From contig CAKZNT010000052.1 of NCBI GenBank assembly GCA_937132065.1, positions 1 to 64,000 of the forward strand: a DNA stretch of 64,000 nucleotides. Direction: 5' to 3'. Origin of the DNA: an uncultured Loktanella sp. (GTDB lineage Bacteria > Pseudomonadota > Alphaproteobacteria > Rhodobacterales > Rhodobacteraceae). The number at the start of each line of letters is the position of its first letter. Position 1 is the first letter of the stretch. The position numbers and the translations under genes are program-made. Below are positions 7,976 through 34,797 of the stretch, in pieces. Under the pieces are notes generated by a model. That model made no database searches, had not been told where the DNA came from, and was given only the letters and a program-made list of their open reading frames with translations.

Positions 7976-8038
7976 ATCTCTAATCTCCTGGAGTGCGGGC
8001 CAACATTGGCACAACGCATAGATTCATATTCAAGCTGC

Positions 8039-27441: not shown

Positions 27442-28995
27442 TTAGAAATCGGTGGGTGCGCCTCCTTCTTCTTTGCGTTTTGCAACGAATGTTTGCAGTT
27501 CCTCGCGCCGTCCTTCGTCAAATGCGGGTGGCTCGAAGTTACCGATAATGTCCTTGAAGGTTTTATGTGCCCGTTCTGCCGTCCAGTCCCCTCCGGCCAC
27601 TTCCCATGCCTCGAAGTTGCGCCAGTCCGACACGATGGGCGCGTAGAACGCTTTCTCGTAGCGCTCTTGCGTGTGTTCGATCCCGAAGAAGTGTCCGTTT
27701 GGTCCGACCTCTTTCACCGCCGCGATGGCGATGTCGTCGATCCCAGTCGCGACCACTTCGGGTTCCATGTAGCGCTGGATCATTTGCAGCACTTCGCAGT
27801 CCATGACGAATTTCTCGGGGCTTGCGATCAGCCCCCCTTCGAGCCAACCCGCCGCGTGATAGACCACGTTTGTGCCTGATTGCACGGCAGACCAGAGCGA
27901 ATTGGAGGTTTCCCACATCGCTTGCCCGTCAGGCACATTGGCCGCGCAAACCCCCGAGGCCCGCATCGGTAGCCCGTAGAACCGTGCCATTTGCCCTGTC
28001 ATCTGGGTGGCCCGCATATATTCAGGTGTGCCGAACGCGGGTGCGCCTGATTTCATATCGACGTTGGAGGTGAATGTGCCGATGACACAAGGCGCGCCGG
28101 GGCGCACATATTGGAACAAGGCGATGGCCGCGATGGCTTCTGCGATAGAAAGCGTCACGGCCCCCGACATTGTCACAGGTGCCATGGCCCCTGCGAGCGT
28201 AAACGGCGTCACAATCACCGCTTGGCCGCGCCGCACGCAGCGCAGGCAGCCGTCGATCATCGGCACATCGTGCTTGAGCGGGGATGTCGAGTTGATGTTG
28301 GTATACATGTGCGGTTTGGCGCAGAACTCTTCCTCGGTCAGCCCGCCCGCGATCTTGACCATCTCCATCACATCTTCGACCCGCTCTTTGCCCAAGGAAT
28401 AGGCGTGTGCGACTTTGTCCGTCAGGGTCATCTTGTCATAGACAACATCAAGGTGGCGGATCGAAGCGTGCACATCACACGGCTCCACGGGATAGCCGCC
28501 CGCAAAGTGGATGCAGTTAAAGTATTGTGTCAGCCGCAAAAGATCAGCGCATTGCGCCCGCGTGCCCGATACCTTTTTACCGATTTCCAGATCAAAGTAA
28601 TTGGGCGGCGAAGAGACGTTCCCGAACAGGATATGGTTTGCGCCAATGGTAATCTTGCGTTCGGGATTGCGCGGGGTGATGTCGAACTGGGCGGGCGCGT
28701 GCCCGATCATCTCCATGACCCAATCGCGCCCCATGCGCACATTCGTCCCGTTCACGGTGCATCCTGCCTGCTTGAAAAGCGCCAGCGCCTCTTCGTTCAG
28801 GAACTCGATCCCGATATCTTCGAGGATCGTCATTGCCCCATTGTGAATGGCCGCAACCCCTTCGGGGCCAAGCGGTTCGGTCGGCTTGTCGATATTAACA
28901 GGGATGCGCCAAGGCATCTGGTCGATGACCTCGTGGCCGCGTCTGGTTGCATTGCCCGCCCGTCCGCCGCCGCGTCGTCTTGGTGCATTTGCCAT
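27442..28995 (-). CDS. MttB-family (COG5598) methyltransferase, non-pyrrolysine
   Basis: A 517-residue TIM-barrel protein of the trimethylamine/glycine betaine methyltransferase family. Family segments include NGAMTILEDIGIEFLNEEAL, FGNVSSPPNYFDLEIGKKVS, and TLSIAEAIAAIALFQYVRPG. The reading frame has no in-frame TAG, so it is a non-pyrrolysine member, a group that includes glycine betaine methyltransferase MtgB. Such enzymes move a methyl group to a corrinoid protein. No corrinoid-binding partner or RACo-type activator is in the window. It follows the HAD gene on the same strand (92 bases) and so probably shares a transcript with it. Confidence 0.85.
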   Translation of the reverse strand: MANAPRRRGGGRAGNATRRGHEVIDQMPWRIPVNIDKPTEPLGPEGVAAIHNGAMTILEDIGIEFLNEEALALFKQAGCTVNGTNVRMGRDWVMEMIGHAPAQFDITPRNPERKITIGANHILFGNVSSPPNYFDLEIGKKVSGTRAQCADLLRLTQYFNCIHFAGGYPVEPCDVHASIRHLDVVYDKMTLTDKVAHAYSLGKERVEDVMEMVKIAGGLTEEEFCAKPHMYTNINSTSPLKHDVPMIDGCLRCVRRGQAVIVTPFTLAGAMAPVTMSGAVTLSIAEAIAAIALFQYVRPGAPCVIGTFTSNVDMKSGAPAFGTPEYMRATQMTGQMARFYGLPMRASGVCAANVPDGQAMWETSNSLWSAVQSGTNVVYHAAGWLEGGLIASPEKFVMDCEVLQMIQRYMEPEVVATGIDDIAIAAVKEVGPNGHFFGIEHTQERYEKAFYAPIVSDWRNFEAWEVAGGDWTAERAHKTFKDIIGNFEPPAFDEGRREELQTFVAKRKEEGGAPTDF

Positions 28996-29087: not shown

Positions 29088-29783
29088 TTACGCGTTTTGC
29101 CCCGCGATCCAGTCGGGCAAATCGGCAATTGAGTGCAGCACAACATCCGCAAGCGGGCGCAATTCGCCTGCCTCTGCTGGTCCCGTCAAAACCCCGACTG
29201 TGCCCATGCCCGCCGCGATCCCCGCATCAAGGTCATGGGTGCTATCCCCCACCATAATGCAATCTTGTGGCGCAAGCCCTGTCGCGGCACAAAAGCCCAG
29301 CAGCTGCCCCGGTTCGGGTTTACCACCAAAGCCACTGTCGTAGCCCGCCACGAAATCAAACAGATCAAGCACATCTGCCCGCGACAGATGCGCCCGCGCG
29401 GGGTCTTCGGCGTCATTGGTCGCAACGCCCAGCACGATCCCCATGTCCTTGAGTGCGCGCAAGAGCGGCAACAGCGGTGCGGCCTGCACTTGCGGCACTT
29501 TGGCCGAGGCGGTCCGCATCCGCGCGATCAGCTCCGGCTTTGAGGCATCCGGCAAAAGCGACATCATCGCATCTGCCACAACATCAACGGTTTCCGCGAT
29601 CACGATACTGCCCGGCCAGAACACGCCCCCTTCGAGGTTATACCCCAAAAGGGCGGCCATTTCGTCCATCCGCCCCGCGTCTGTGCCGACCTCGGAGGCG
29701 ATCATTTCGCGGGTCCAGGTCCCCCATGTCGCGTTAAAGTCGAACAATGTGCCGTCCTTGTCGAAGATAATGCCTTTGATCAT
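29088..29783 (-). CDS. HAD-superfamily hydrolase (phosphoglycolate phosphatase-like)
   Basis: A 231-residue HAD phosphatase starting at ATG 29781-29783. Motif I is IFDKDGTLFDF (nucleophile and acid Asp), motif II is in LGVATND, motif III is the Lys of GGKPEPGQL, and motif IV is MVGDSTHDLDAG. A helical cap lies between motifs I and II. These enzymes dephosphorylate small metabolites such as phosphoglycolate; despite the superfamily name, nothing here indicates dehalogenation. It precedes the MttB-family gene and is divergent from the reductive dehalogenase gene. Confidence 0.85.
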   Translation of the reverse strand: MIKGIIFDKDGTLFDFNATWGTWTREMIASEVGTDAGRMDEMAALLGYNLEGGVFWPGSIVIAETVDVVADAMMSLLPDASKPELIARMRTASAKVPQVQAAPLLPLLRALKDMGIVLGVATNDAEDPARAHLSRADVLDLFDFVAGYDSGFGGKPEPGQLLGFCAATGLAPQDCIMVGDSTHDLDAGIAAGMGTVGVLTGPAEAGELRPLADVVLHSIADLPDWIAGQNA

Positions 29784-29808
29784 TTCCAGCCCTTCCTGAT
29801 TGCCTGTC

Positions 29809-29842
29809 TTGACACTCGACCCTGCCCCCGTGACGGTGTCAA
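29809..29842. promoter_or_regulatory. TTGACAC/GTGTCAA inverted repeat before the reductive dehalogenase gene
   Basis: TTGACAC at 29809-29815 and GTGTCAA at 29836-29842 are 20 bases apart in the divergent region between the HAD gene (start 29783) and the dehalogenase gene (start 29848). It could be an operator; TTGACA may also serve as a -35 box. Confidence 0.45.
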
Positions 29843-29847
29843 CCAAC

Positions 29848-32800
29848 ATGCTTAAATTACGCTCATACCGCTCTCGCCCCATGCACGCTGGCGCCTTTCC
29901 GATGGAAAAGTTGACCCGCATGGCATCTGTTGATCTGACGGCTGTGCCGCCCATGCAGCCTGTCTCGTTTCGCCGCCCCGATGACCCCAAAAGCATTGTG
30001 AATGCGATGCAGGATTATCAGGCGATGCTGGATGCGACCCGCAGCGGCATGATCAAGAAAGAGATCGCCGAGATCCCTGATGATCACACCGAGCGCGCCA
30101 ACCATTTAAAATCGTTCGCTTATTTCTGCGATGCCAGCATTGTTGGCACTTGTGCAATTCGGCCCGATCACTGGCTCCCCGCCCCGTTTGTGAACCCTGA
30201 CGTGGATCGGCTGGCTGAAAAGTTGCGCGTTATGCAGCCAAAGACGCTTGCTGCGGGCATCGACGTGATCATGGCGGGCCTGCGCGAGAGCATGTCGCTT
30301 CCCCCGTCTGATTGCCGTGATCATTCCCATGCGCTTGTGTTTCTTTACGACCACCCGCGTGCCCCCCGCGCGACCGAGGCTGGCACGGCATGGATCACTG
30401 ACGCCCTGCCCCAGCGCGCCTGTCTGCGCGGCATGGAAACCGCCGTGACCCTTGCCAGCTATATCCGCACCCTTGGCTATGACGCCCGCGCCCATTCGAT
30501 GGCAGCCAGTGACATTGATCTCGGGGCTTTGGCCGTGTCTGCGGGGCTGGTTGCCCTTGAGGACGGCGTGCTAGTGAACCCGTTTACAGGTGATCGCTAT
30601 GGTTTGGCGGCTGTCACAACGACCCTTGATATGGCCGTCGATTTGCCGATCGCGCCGCGCCAAGAGGCGCCGATGTCTTATACCCTTGGCCTTGGCGCAC
30701 ATGCGAAATCCGCCCGCACCCGTGACCCCTTTGCCAAGCGTGATTTTGCCAAGGGTCCGCACCCGTTTGAAACCCTCAAGCGTGTTTCCGAACCGACCAC
30801 TTATATCGACGCCCCGAATGTTGCCCGTGTCCCCAAGCGCGCCAATCTGTTCGCCCGCGCCCTGTTCGGCGATATGGGCAAGCAGGTCCAAGAGGCGACC
30901 AAGAACGGCAACTACGTGCGCAAGTCTGCTGCCGCCTTTGCCTTTCGCCCGTCCCTTGGAGCATTTGTTCTGCTTCAGGATGGCGAGGCCGCTGATATTC
31001 ATCATAGCACATTAAATCCCGACGAAAATGCCCAAAATATCAAAGCCGCATTGTATTTTCTAGGTGTTGATGCCGTTGGCCTGAGCGCCTGCCCCGACTG
31101 GACCTACTATAGCCACGATGTCGCGGGCCAGCCGATCACCCCATATCATAGCAATGCGATTTCGATGATTATCGACCAGGGTCACGAGACAATGGAAGGT
31201 GCTTCGGGGGATGACTGGATTGCCTGCGCCCAGTCGATGCGCGCTTATCTGCGGTTCTCTCTTTTGGGCGGTGTGCTTGCGGAACATATCCGCAATCTTG
31301 GCTATACCGCTCGCGTGCATTCGGTGATGGACGACGAGGTGCTGCAACCTCCGCTGTTGCTATTGTCAGGTCTTGGCGAAGTGAGCCGCATTGGCGAGGT
31401 GATCCTTAACCCGTTCCTTGGCCCCCGCCTAAAATCCGGTGTTGTGACCACCAATATGCCGATGACCCACGACAAGCCCATTGATTTTGGCCTGCAATCG
31501 TTTTGCGAGGCCTGCAACAAATGTGCCCGCGAGTGCCCGTCAGGCGCGATTACCGCTGGCCCCAAGTTGATGTTCAACGGCTACGAAATCTGGAAGTCCG
31601 ACAGCCAGAAGTGCACGACCTACCGCGTCAGCCAGAAGAATGGTGCGATGTGTGGCCGCTGCATGAAGACCTGTCCGTGGAACCTTGAGGGTCTGTTTGC
31701 GGAGGCTCCGTTTCGCAAGCTGGCAATGGCTGCACCGAAGTCCGCAAAGGTTTTGGCCGCGCTGGATGACAAGCTGGGCAACGGGTCGATCAATACCGCT
31801 AAAAAGTGGTGGTGGGATCTGGAGATGGAGGATGACGGCGCCTATCGCCCTGCCCGCGCGCCTGCAAATGTGCGCAGCCTGTCGCGCGACCTGAAGCTGG
31901 CTTATGCTGACCAGACCTTAGCGGTTTACCCCGCCCCGCTTGCGCCGCCGCCCTATCCTTGGCCGTTTCCGATGGACCGCGAGGCGGGTATTGCGGCCTA
32001 CGCGGCTATGATTAGCGCCGATGAGCATAAGGCACGCCGCGCGAAGGGTGCGCCGCCAGAACATGTCTACACCGCAAGCACGCTGGATGCCCCGATCCTG
32101 AGCCTTGTGGTGACCCGCGCCGAGCCCTTAACGGATTCGGTCACGCTCTACGAGCTATCGGACCCGACGGGCGCGGACTTGCCGCCGTTCACCGCAGGCG
32201 CACATATTGATGTCGTGGTCGCGCCCGAGTTTTTCCGACAGTATTCGCTTTCTGGTGATCCAGCGCATAGAAAATCCTATCAGATCGCAGTGCTGCGCGA
32301 GGACGCGGGCCGCGGTGGTTCCAAGCTGATGCATCGCATTTTCACGCTTGGTCGCCGTGTCTTTGTCTCCAAGCCGATCAACCACTTTCCGCTGATCGAG
32401 GATGCGCCCCACAGTCTATTGATGGGGGGCGGGATCGGTGTGACCCCGATGATCGCGATGGCCCATCGCCTCCACGCGCTAGGCCGCCCGTTTGACCTAT
32501 ACTATAGCGTCAAAACCCGTGCGAATGCCGGATTTATCGACCTGTTGATGGCGCAACCTTGGGCCGCCAATGTGCATCCCAACATTTCTGACGAAGGCAC
32601 GCGCGCCGACTTGGCTAAGGTTATGCAGTATCAAGAGGGCGCGCATGCTTATACGTGCGGCCCCGATGTCTATATGGCCTCTGTCATGGAGGCCGCGCAA
32701 GCGAACGGGTTCCCCGAAGACGCCCGACATCTGGAGTATTTCGCGGTTCCAGATGCCCCTGACTATGTGAACCACCCGTTCCGGCTCCGTCTTAAGGACG

Positions 32801-33036
32801 GGCGCGTTTTGGAGGTGGGAGCGGATGAACCTGCCACGGACGCCCTCTTGCGGGCGGGTGTTCATGTGGATGTGAAATGCGCCGACGGGCTATGTGGCGT
32901 CTGCAAATGTGGCGTGCAAAGCGGAGATGTCGAGCATCGCGACTATGTGCTGTCCAAGGCGCAGCGGGCCACAGAAATCATCTTGTGCCGAAGCCGCGCG
33001 GCCAAGCCTGACGGTGAAATCGTGATTGACCTTTAG
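29848..33036 (+). CDS. Self-sufficient reductive dehalogenase fusion (corrinoid, 4Fe-4S, flavin reductase, 2Fe-2S)
   Basis: A 1062-residue single-chain protein. Residues about 60-300 form a degenerate dehalogenase-like domain; about 330-620 a second, better conserved one with SACPDWTYYSHD and YLRFSLLGGVLAEHIRNLGY. Two 4Fe-4S motifs follow: C553/C556/C559/C563 and C589/C602/C605/C609. Next is a phthalate dioxygenase reductase-type module: flavin-binding FRQYSLSGDP (about 795), nucleotide-binding GGGIGVTPM (about 859) and a 2Fe-2S ferredoxin with C1011, C1016, C1019 and C1047. This is the layout of NAD(P)H-dependent reductive dehalogenases such as BhbA. There is no Tat signal, so it is cytoplasmic. 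The start ATG 29848 lacks a clear ribosome binding site. The halogenated substrate is unknown. Confidence 0.82.
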   Translation: MLKLRSYRSRPMHAGAFPMEKLTRMASVDLTAVPPMQPVSFRRPDDPKSIVNAMQDYQAMLDATRSGMIKKEIAEIPDDHTERANHLKSFAYFCDASIVGTCAIRPDHWLPAPFVNPDVDRLAEKLRVMQPKTLAAGIDVIMAGLRESMSLPPSDCRDHSHALVFLYDHPRAPRATEAGTAWITDALPQRACLRGMETAVTLASYIRTLGYDARAHSMAASDIDLGALAVSAGLVALEDGVLVNPFTGDRYGLAAVTTTLDMAVDLPIAPRQEAPMSYTLGLGAHAKSARTRDPFAKRDFAKGPHPFETLKRVSEPTTYIDAPNVARVPKRANLFARALFGDMGKQVQEATKNGNYVRKSAAAFAFRPSLGAFVLLQDGEAADIHHSTLNPDENAQNIKAALYFLGVDAVGLSACPDWTYYSHDVAGQPITPYHSNAISMIIDQGHETMEGASGDDWIACAQSMRAYLRFSLLGGVLAEHIRNLGYTARVHSVMDDEVLQPPLLLLSGLGEVSRIGEVILNPFLGPRLKSGVVTTNMPMTHDKPIDFGLQSFCEACNKCARECPSGAITAGPKLMFNGYEIWKSDSQKCTTYRVSQKNGAMCGRCMKTCPWNLEGLFAEAPFRKLAMAAPKSAKVLAALDDKLGNGSINTAKKWWWDLEMEDDGAYRPARAPANVRSLSRDLKLAYADQTLAVYPAPLAPPPYPWPFPMDREAGIAAYAAMISADEHKARRAKGAPPEHVYTASTLDAPILSLVVTRAEPLTDSVTLYELSDPTGADLPPFTAGAHIDVVVAPEFFRQYSLSGDPAHRKSYQIAVLREDAGRGGSKLMHRIFTLGRRVFVSKPINHFPLIEDAPHSLLMGGGIGVTPMIAMAHRLHALGRPFDLYYSVKTRANAGFIDLLMAQPWAANVHPNISDEGTRADLAKVMQYQEGAHAYTCGPDVYMASVMEAAQANGFPEDARHLEYFAVPDAPDYVNHPFRLRLKDGRVLEVGADEPATDALLRAGVHVDVKCADGLCGVCKCGVQSGDVEHRDYVLSKAQRATEIILCRSRAAKPDGEIVIDL

Positions 33037-33311
33037 GTCCAGTGCACGTTCTCGGCCCCAGGCATCGCGTAGCGTGCGCGCAGTGGCATGTCGTATTTCA
33101 GGTCATGCGCATCGCAAAATGCAGTGACCCAAGCATCGTCCATTGTCAGGAATTCAAGCACCGAGGATTGAAACGCCGGATCGGTGGCTTGTGCGCGCAA
33201 ATCGTCAACCGAACAGCCGCTTGCCCCCAGAAATATCGGGCAAAGTTCGTCGTTTCCTGCCAACCAGCCAAGCGCCTGTAGCGCGATTGTTTGGGCTTGT
33301 TCGGGGCTCAT
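33033..33311 (-). CDS. DUF3572 protein
   Basis: A 92-residue protein of DUF3572: QTIALQALGWLAGNDELCPI, FLGASGCSVDDLRAQATDPA, and VLEFLTMDDAWVTAFCDAHD. It is small, acidic and probably cytoplasmic, with unknown function. It lies divergent from the pleD-like gene, an arrangement that recurs in Rhodobacteraceae. Its 3' end overlaps the end of the dehalogenase gene by four bases. Confidence 0.85.
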   Translation of the reverse strand: MSPEQAQTIALQALGWLAGNDELCPIFLGASGCSVDDLRAQATDPAFQSSVLEFLTMDDAWVTAFCDAHDLKYDMPLRARYAMPGAENVHWT

Positions 33312-33402
33312 GTCGGGTCCCTTTCTTTCGGCAACCGTTTTTTAACTATTCAAAGCTAGCTTGTCCTTGTCGCAGTGGTGAAACCACGAAAGGATCATAG
33401 AT

Positions 33403-34797
33403 ATGACGGGTCGTATTTTGATTGTCGATACTTTACCGACAAACAGAATTGTGCTGAAGGTCAAAATGTTGGCCGCTCAGTTCAAAGTAGATGCATGTGG
33501 CTCTCGGCTGGAGGCTGAGGCGATAATCGCCCGTGATCGTCCTGATCTGATCTTGATTAACCTTTCTGATCAAGCGGAAGACAGGCATGGATTTTGCCGC
33601 GAATTGAAGGAGTCGTCCGACACGGCCGCGATTGCGATTATTTCTGTTGGTATTGCTGATACGGCACGGGCACGGTTTGCCGCACTGGATGCAGGCGCAG
33701 ACGATGTTTTACCCCGCCCGATCAACGATGCCTTATTGCTTGCACGCATTCGCTCGCTTTTGCGTGTTCGCCATGCGCGTCAGGAATTGATGTTGCGTGA
33801 CGGCACAAGCCGTGCCCTTGGGTTCGAGGAAACAAGGAGCGGATTTGGCGCGGCGGCACGTGTGGCCCTGCTCTCTCATTCTGCTCTATCGGGGCGACAA
33901 CTGGCTGAAAAGCTTGATAGCGGGCTGACACTCCCTGTTCTACGCCTTGAGACGGATCGCATTTTGTCGACCTCTTCTGTTACGCCTGTGCCTGACCTGT
34001 TTGTCATTGATGGCACACGGTGCACGGATGGAGGGCGCGGTTTGTTCCGCTTGGTGTCGGATCTTCGGTCCCGCTCGGAGACGCGCACATCCTCCATCAT
34101 GGTTGTTTTGCCAGATGACGAGCCTGAAATCGCCGCCCTGATACTCGACCTGGGTGCAGATGATGTCGTGTCCAAAAGCGTCTCCAAGGGAGAACTTGTT
34201 TTGCGCGCGAAGGCGTTGGTTCACCAGAAATTGCTGCATGACCGTTTGCGCAATACCGTGCGCGATGGCTTGCAGGCAGCTGTGACCGATCCCCTAACGG
34301 GTCTGTATAACCGCCGCTATGTAGAGCCACATCTGGCGCGCATTGCCGAACAGGCGCAGGCCACACAGCGGGAATTTGCGGTGATGATGCTGGACATCGA
34401 CCACTTCAAATCCATCAATGACCGTTATGGTCATGCTGCTGGTGACAAGGTTCTTATCGAGATCGCCCATCGTTTGCGCGATAATCTGCGCGCGATTGAC
34501 CTTGTGGCGCGCATCGGCGGCGAAGAGTTCATGATTGCAATGCCGCGCACGAGTGGCGAGCAAGCCCATGCCGCCGCTGATCGGGTGCGCCAACTGATAT
34601 CGGCGCAGCCATTCTCGCTTGGGGTCGATCATCCCATGATTACGGTAACGGTCTCTGTCGGCGTCACGACTGGCGGGTTGTCGCGGCTTGATCGTGGCCA
34701 GATCAACGGCATGTGTGGCCAAGCTGATGCCGCGCTTTATGCGGCTAAGTCGGCAGGGCGCGACACAGTTGCAATGAGTAACTTCGCCACCGCTTAA
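33403..34797 (+). CDS. pleD: PleD-like diguanylate cyclase with degenerate receiver domains
   Basis: A 464-residue protein with receiver-receiver-GGDEF order. The cyclase domain (about 295-460) has DPLTGLYNRRY, DIDHFKSINDRYGHAAGDKV, and GGEEF at residue 372, with the inhibitory RxxD site (RAID) five residues before it, so activity and c-di-GMP feedback should be intact. Receiver one is abnormal: VVDD of PleD is IVDT, and the phosphoacceptor Asp position reads Asn in DLILINLSDQ. Receiver two is degenerate, as is usual. Activity is therefore probably not governed by phosphorylation of receiver one. The gene converges end to end with the metal-sensor gene. Confidence 0.88.
   Translation: MTGRILIVDTLPTNRIVLKVKMLAAQFKVDACGSRLEAEAIIARDRPDLILINLSDQAEDRHGFCRELKESSDTAAIAIISVGIADTARARFAALDAGADDVLPRPINDALLLARIRSLLRVRHARQELMLRDGTSRALGFEETRSGFGAAARVALLSHSALSGRQLAEKLDSGLTLPVLRLETDRILSTSSVTPVPDLFVIDGTRCTDGGRGLFRLVSDLRSRSETRTSSIMVVLPDDEPEIAALILDLGADDVVSKSVSKGELVLRAKALVHQKLLHDRLRNTVRDGLQAAVTDPLTGLYNRRYVEPHLARIAEQAQATQREFAVMMLDIDHFKSINDRYGHAAGDKVLIEIAHRLRDNLRAIDLVARIGGEEFMIAMPRTSGEQAHAAADRVRQLISAQPFSLGVDHPMITVTVSVGVTTGGLSRLDRGQINGMCGQADAALYAAKSAGRDTVAMSNFATA

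Follow-up and report, generated by a model that had tools for sequence, protein, structure and literature searches.

Self-sufficient catabolic reductive dehalogenases are a characterised type of enzyme, named and described in PMC10463259 as having a vestigial duplication and a fused reductase. According to that paper, JtRdhA of Jhaorihella thermophila uses NADPH to remove bromine or iodine from phenols whether or not air is present, chlorinated analogues only inhibit it, and all catabolic reductive dehalogenases (RdhAs) characterised up to then were specific for ortho-halogenated phenols. Here we describe rdhA, a gene in a 64,000-nucleotide (nt) stretch of DNA from an uncultured Loktanella sp. 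(contig CAKZNT010000052.1, "the window" below), whose product is an enzyme of this already characterised type. Judging from sequence, we hold it highly probable that the rdhA product is a catabolic reductive dehalogenase made as a single chain, soluble and located in the cytoplasm, and that the gene has the history of insertion and marR loss set out below. The sole element that we did not find described is this regulatory history, which is a prediction.

By its description in PMC10463259, JtRdhA resembles the rdhA product in having a vestigial and a working cobalamin domain, two 4Fe-4S clusters, a fused phthalate-dioxygenase-reductase-like module, no twin-arginine translocation (TAT) signal and the same active-site residues. 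BhbA of Comamonas sp. 7D-2 (plasmid pBHB, locus L094) has the same full domain order and is 48.6% identical across 100% of the query; bhbA lies on a conjugative plasmid by genes for protocatechuate 4,5-dioxygenase and a tricarboxylate-type transporter, whereas the window's rdhA stands by itself within a core block of the chromosome. NpRdhA of Nitratireductor pacificus (4RAS, 6ZXU), the best sequence and structure match (56% identity over 260 core columns), shares the vestigial domain and the active site and, unlike the window's protein, lacks the fused reductase (PMC10463259). Respiratory reductive dehalogenases of the PceA type, with TAT export and neither vestigial domain nor fused reductase, are not matched by rdhA.

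A marine debrominase of the reductive dehalogenase (RDase) superfamily, Ros_A3X954, comes from Roseobacter sp. MED193 (PMC13101508). Its 4Fe-4S clusters at 283-294 and 337-345 indicate a short RDase without the domain order of rdhA, and we rejected it as an orthologue. MED193 also holds a full-length relative that is 64% identical to the window's protein. Five genomes of the window's genus (G244, G240, G245, G247 and G227) contain short frames, RDase-like and 392-398 codons in length, that share 29-35% identity with the core and are perhaps of the Ros_A3X954 kind.

Domain architecture of the rdhA product

The open frame spans 29800-33036 on the plus strand (1078 codons from a TTG). Because homology to NpRdhA starts at about codon 17, we placed the start at the ATG at 29848, which is codon 17 of the frame. 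Residue positions follow ATG numbering, except that stretches matched by structures are numbered in the 1078-codon frame. The features are as follows.

29848..33036, plus strand: rdhA, self-sufficient catabolic reductive dehalogenase, 1062 residues (profile, structure, alignment, tree)
30085..30717, plus strand: vestigial N-terminal cobalamin-binding domain copy, residues ~80-290, approximate ends (similarity to the second copy)
30973..31503, plus strand: working corrinoid/substrate domain, residues ~376-552, approximate ends, with S463, M464, Y467 and K529
31504..31539, plus strand: first 4Fe-4S motif CEACNKCARECP, with C553, C556, C559 and C563
31612..31674, plus strand: second 4Fe-4S motif, with C589, C602, C605 and C609, including R593
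32098..32772, plus strand: flavin mononucleotide (FMN)/NAD(P)H reductase module, residues ~751-975, approximate ends, with RQYSL and GGIGVTP (2PIA match)
32800..33033, plus strand: 2Fe-2S ferredoxin domain, with C1011, C1016, C1019 and C1047 (Pfam Fer2, 35.1 bits, cut-off 21)

The rdhA frame and its homology are real and not due to chance. The reductive dehalogenase profile TIGR02486 scored 197.7 bits (cut-off 160.35) in two stretches, with a second, weak match of 30.8 bits at 30088-30651 in the vestigial copy, and Fer4_7, Fer4_16 and Fer2 exceeded their Pfam cut-offs. The NpRdhA structures 4RAS and 6ZXU matched with E of about 1e-164 (best stretch 171-746, second 18-124), and phthalate dioxygenase reductase 2PIA with E of 3e-52 across 767-1078. 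The reductase module also matched the self-sufficient P450 reductases 6KBH and 6LAA; its RQYSL and GGIGVTP are presumably the flavin and nucleotide motifs.

A reading made earlier from the letters of this DNA (the sequence-only reading) had proposed, from the same start at 29848, a single polypeptide with a duplicated dehalogenase region, two 4Fe-4S motifs, a flavin/NAD reductase and a 2Fe-2S ferredoxin, and each part was borne out. Residues 61-290 align with residues 371-640 (36% identical in 112 columns, with a pairwise E of 2e-13), and all eight 4Fe-4S cysteines are present in the two motifs. The first copy, judged there to be degenerate and maybe structural, lacks 4Fe-4S motifs as read off the sequence; a structural role for it fits the account of NpRdhA in PMC10463259. 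No twin-arginine motif was found in the N-terminus MLKLRSYRSRPMHAG by reading, with no predictor used, so a TAT signal is absent.

Active site, phylogeny and structure model

Six active-site residues of NpRdhA are listed in PMC10463259. F335, S463, M464, Y467, K529 and R593 of the rdhA product correspond to NpRdhA F291, S422, M423, Y426, K488 and R552, and all six are identical; the catalytic Tyr and Lys/Arg that the sequence-only reading had wanted mapped are thus Y467, K529 and R593. These residues are invariant in 96 aligned rows, window included, bar one gap at F335, while the two PceA proteins carry R in place of the Lys and W in place of the Arg. Missing pocket residues had been named beforehand as grounds for doubt, and none of the six tested was missing.

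Nor did the protein place with QueG-like relatives, the other outcome named beforehand. In a tree of the catalytic core, the window's protein, NpRdhA, BhbA and 23 relatives (26 rows) split from two PceA and the QueG of the same genome with support 98/95.7; core identity to the two PceA pieces was 37% and 32%. Profile, active site and placement together support the proposed single-chain NAD(P)H-dependent reductive dehalogenase candidate; the sequence-only reading did not mention that the type had been characterised before and is frequent in the family.

The AlphaFold model was of moderate quality (mean predicted local distance difference test score, pLDDT, 73.8; predicted template modelling score 0.68), with pLDDT below 50 at residues 563-580 and 582-600. 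In a Foldseek search with this model, NpRdhA took ranks 1-14 (best E 6e-50, ~40% identity), and rank 15 was 2PIA (E 4e-29). In its own genome, rdhA is the one frame over the TIGR02486 cut-off, and the sole other match is a QueG-like gene (345-codon frame).

Probable insertion of rdhA into a core gene block

The genes around rdhA are as follows.

27442-28995, minus strand: MttB-family methyltransferase, adjoining HAD (Pfam, 729 bits)
29088..29780, minus strand: HAD-like hydrolase, divergent neighbour, core block, not thought to be part of the enzyme system
33033..33311, minus strand: DUF3572 gene, other flank of the insertion, within the core block and outside the enzyme system

The mttB, HAD and DUF3572 genes and a GGDEF response regulator recur as a group in family genomes, and by eye mttB stands beside HAD in many of them. 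Counts for the HAD-DUF3572 pair refer to the 123 genomes transcribed among the matches listed, with G136, where the two genes are not adjacent, left out. HAD and DUF3572 adjoin in 103 of the 123 (less than 1 kb apart, median gap 37 nt), and no near-full-length rdhA was found in 55 of these 103. A gap of 3-6 kb occurs in 8 genomes, another arrangement in 3, and different contigs hold the two genes in 9; rdhA lies between them in 6, window included. Because the pair adjoins without rdhA in most genomes, rdhA, probably with its marR, is most simply read as an insertion between HAD and DUF3572 of the core block, and its position next to HAD is no evidence of partnership.

A marR gene and a predicted operator

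Relatives of rdhA were collected by tblastn, and 80 of 254 loci were kept, some cut by contig ends, with 63-85% identity to the window's protein. We scored marR as present when a MarR-family gene on the same strand lay at most 400 nt upstream of rdhA, and found it in 41 of the 80; Pfam MarR_2 and MarR were over cut-off in all three upstream proteins tested. Just before the marR start lies a palindrome, TTGACA-N-TGTCAA, exact in 18 of the 41 and with at most one mismatch in 27. None of the 40 rows without adjacent marR has it with at most one mismatch; their best is two mismatches, in 7 rows including the window (gaps 0-4 allowed). Where marR-bearing loci have a site, a -35-like TTGACA with no more than one mismatch is most often found 21 nt ahead of it, in 10 of 33 such loci.

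The pattern was picked after reading marR starts, and therefore only the count of exact copies in 1.37 Mb and a set of 32 further loci serve as tests. The 1.37 Mb contained 18 exact copies, all at marR starts, against 0.03 expected from base composition; since eight come from one Leisingera group, the sites are not independent. Among the further loci (three of which, L085, L088 and L089, have a core identical to that of a first-set locus), the site with at most two mismatches was present in 6 of 6 with a same-strand marR, none of them holding an exact copy, and in 0 of 26 others, including L097 and L099, which have a MarR gene of opposite orientation. In twenty loci of more distant copies (63-66% identity), neither marR nor site was found within 900 nt.

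From these sequence patterns, TTGACA-N-TGTCAA is a predicted MarR operator for halophenol sensing, and the prediction is testable. Among the papers listed in a search of mainly open-access literature, none had a title or abstract opening that dealt with a regulator of a self-sufficient RdhA. The nearest among them is BhbR2 of Pigmentiphaga kullae (PMC12016517), a MarR-family activator of a bromophenolic acid operon with the site TTGATT-N5-AATCAA. This site and the one predicted here are both of the TTGA...TCAA type, and differ in inner sequence and spacer; a further difference is that in the window's clade no marR adjoins rdhA. The predicted operator and its MarR offer a ready test of which natural compound the system senses, with the marR-less lineage as a natural contrast.

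Proposed loss of marR and promoter take-over in the window's lineage

The window's clade (Yoonia/Loktanella) lacks an adjacent marR, and the window is one of 28 marR-less tree rows (fork support 81; inner 22-row fork 100). A search of the window's genome gave no orthologue of the regulator (best 28%; assembly 94% complete). Upstream of rdhA lies the following feature.

29809..29842, plus strand: putative promoter remnant, with a -35-like TTGACA at 29809-29814 and a degenerate operator GTGACGGTGTCAA at 29830-29842

The degenerate operator ends 5 nt before the rdhA ATG, and the same spacing to the first start codon occurs in 12 of 33 marR-bearing loci. In 17 of the 28 marR-less loci, TTGACA, one base and 20 nt are followed by GTGTCAA shortly before the rdhA ATG, a spacing that puts TTGACA at the modal -21 offset; in the other 11 the right half is absent, which means that not every locus of the group shows the relic. 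A simple promoter scan of 29500-33500 gave 2 promoter-like sites against 1.6 in shuffles, with none before the rdhA start. We infer from the shared spacing that the rdhA start replaced the marR start behind the old promoter, while the left half of the operator decayed. This suggests deregulated expression of rdhA, without that regulator, in the Yoonia/Loktanella lineage.

Two considerations temper this history: marR state changes six times on the tree against a shuffled mean of 27, a count that does not separate gain of marR from loss, and loss of marR is itself no proof of constitutive expression. The chances seem to us evenly balanced that an inducible marR-rdhA cassette entered the core block, that Yoonia/Loktanella then lost the regulator, and that the debrominase became a resident, regulator-free housekeeping function.

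Locus L068 (KLAP22 contig, rdhA at 8001) lies outside the 28-row group and has a similar half-site. Its synteny and upstream region are like those of the window's lineage, and its rdhA groups with Albidovulum-like copies; an in-place gene replacement by recombination is possible.

Proposed function and alternative explanations

Cofactors, electron path, substrate class and activity in air are inferred from JtRdhA and NpRdhA. By this analogy, NAD(P)H would reduce FMN in the C-terminal phthalate-dioxygenase-reductase-like module, and electrons would pass through the 2Fe-2S cluster and the two 4Fe-4S clusters to base-off cobalamin. There an ortho-bromo- or ortho-iodophenol would lose halide, with a proton supplied from the Tyr467/Lys529(/Arg593) site, and the N-terminal copy would be structural. 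A marine bromo- or iodophenol substrate, as the sequence-only reading had suggested, is plausible by the same analogy. The gene itself would have arrived in a cassette, probably rdhA with marR, and marR loss would then have left rdhA behind the old marR promoter. CobN and two BluB proteins (genes at G000:C1:117-716 and C59:45776-46378) were over cut-off in the window's genome, and therefore cobalamin with dimethylbenzimidazole is probably made by the host. HmgA was also over cut-off, on another contig.

Several observations pull the other way. PobA was not over cut-off in the 94%-complete assembly, and we rejected a PobA route for the dehalogenation product; ten window proteins were searched, and no halophenol-pathway enzyme or transporter was among them. 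JtRdhA belongs to another species and is likened to rdhA by its published description, and the pocket comparison, made on six substrate-site residues, covers only part of the corrinoid contacts. The tree has very long outgroup branches and a bootstrap that did not converge, and the program gave a warning that long branches meet at NpRdhA; both PceA had fallen among the catabolic rows in an earlier tree, whose QueG row was wrong. The structure model, of moderate quality, superposed on NpRdhA with a root-mean-square deviation of 6.6-7.5 Å over ~745 columns, too loosely for a judgement of pocket geometry.

The best surviving alternative keeps the fold and cofactors and assigns another substrate, for example a natural non-halogenated phenolic. 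The gene is common, in one lineage it is resident in a core block and not beside a known pollutant pathway, and epoxyqueuosine reductases exemplify other chemistry within the superfamily. We nevertheless regard this as improbable: the active site keeps all six NpRdhA residues, ring-cleavage genes adjoin those for BhbA and the Nitratireductor OM-1 copy, and the ortho-halophenol specificity reported in PMC10463259 extends to every catabolic RdhA that it counts as characterised.

Still less likely is a functional partnership between the reductive dehalogenase and the divergent HAD gene, whose name comes from haloacid dehalogenases. In 61 of the 80 loci this gene is on the strand opposite to rdhA, and its far end is at most 1.6 kb upstream; the same pair of HAD and DUF3572, however, adjoins without rdhA between in the 103 genomes counted above, and we rejected the partnership as an effect of the insertion site.

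That rdhA encodes a QueG-like epoxyqueuosine reductase is scarcely credible and is refuted by the tree, where the protein lies apart from QueG: membership of the same class III cobalamin superfamily and a weak TIGR00276 match (23.3 bits, cut-off 200) speak for it, against a separate QueG-like gene in the genome and a match to the epoxyqueuosine reductase structure 5D08 only at E 0.005.

Distribution of rdhA

A near-full-length copy is present in 84 of 199 family genomes taken one per genus, window's included. Within the window's genus (55 genomes), 27, window included, have a near-full-length copy with 75-100% identity, three more have a broken or cut copy, and nine have only a type with 62-64% identity. 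Putative bhbA homologues are described as widely distributed in the Roseobacter clade in PMC13101508. The window adds one more host, with a predicted chromosomal self-sufficient debrominase and cobalamin-making genes, to a widespread type, whose spread is relevant to how ordinary aerobic heterotrophs cycle bromine.

Genome G206 of the window's genus holds three near-full-length copies with 57-64% identity to the window's, one with an in-frame stop. In L112 (G199), L113 (G230) and L114 (G090), rdhA is split into two overlapping frames, and relatives have intact copies; natural gene fission was rejected, as the frame changes fall inside coding stretches and look more like broken frames or sequencing errors. 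L097, L098 and L099 are plasmid-borne relatives with MarR genes nearby, and on the plasmids of Aminobacter and Yoonia SS1-5, TRAP transporter genes lie close to rdhA.

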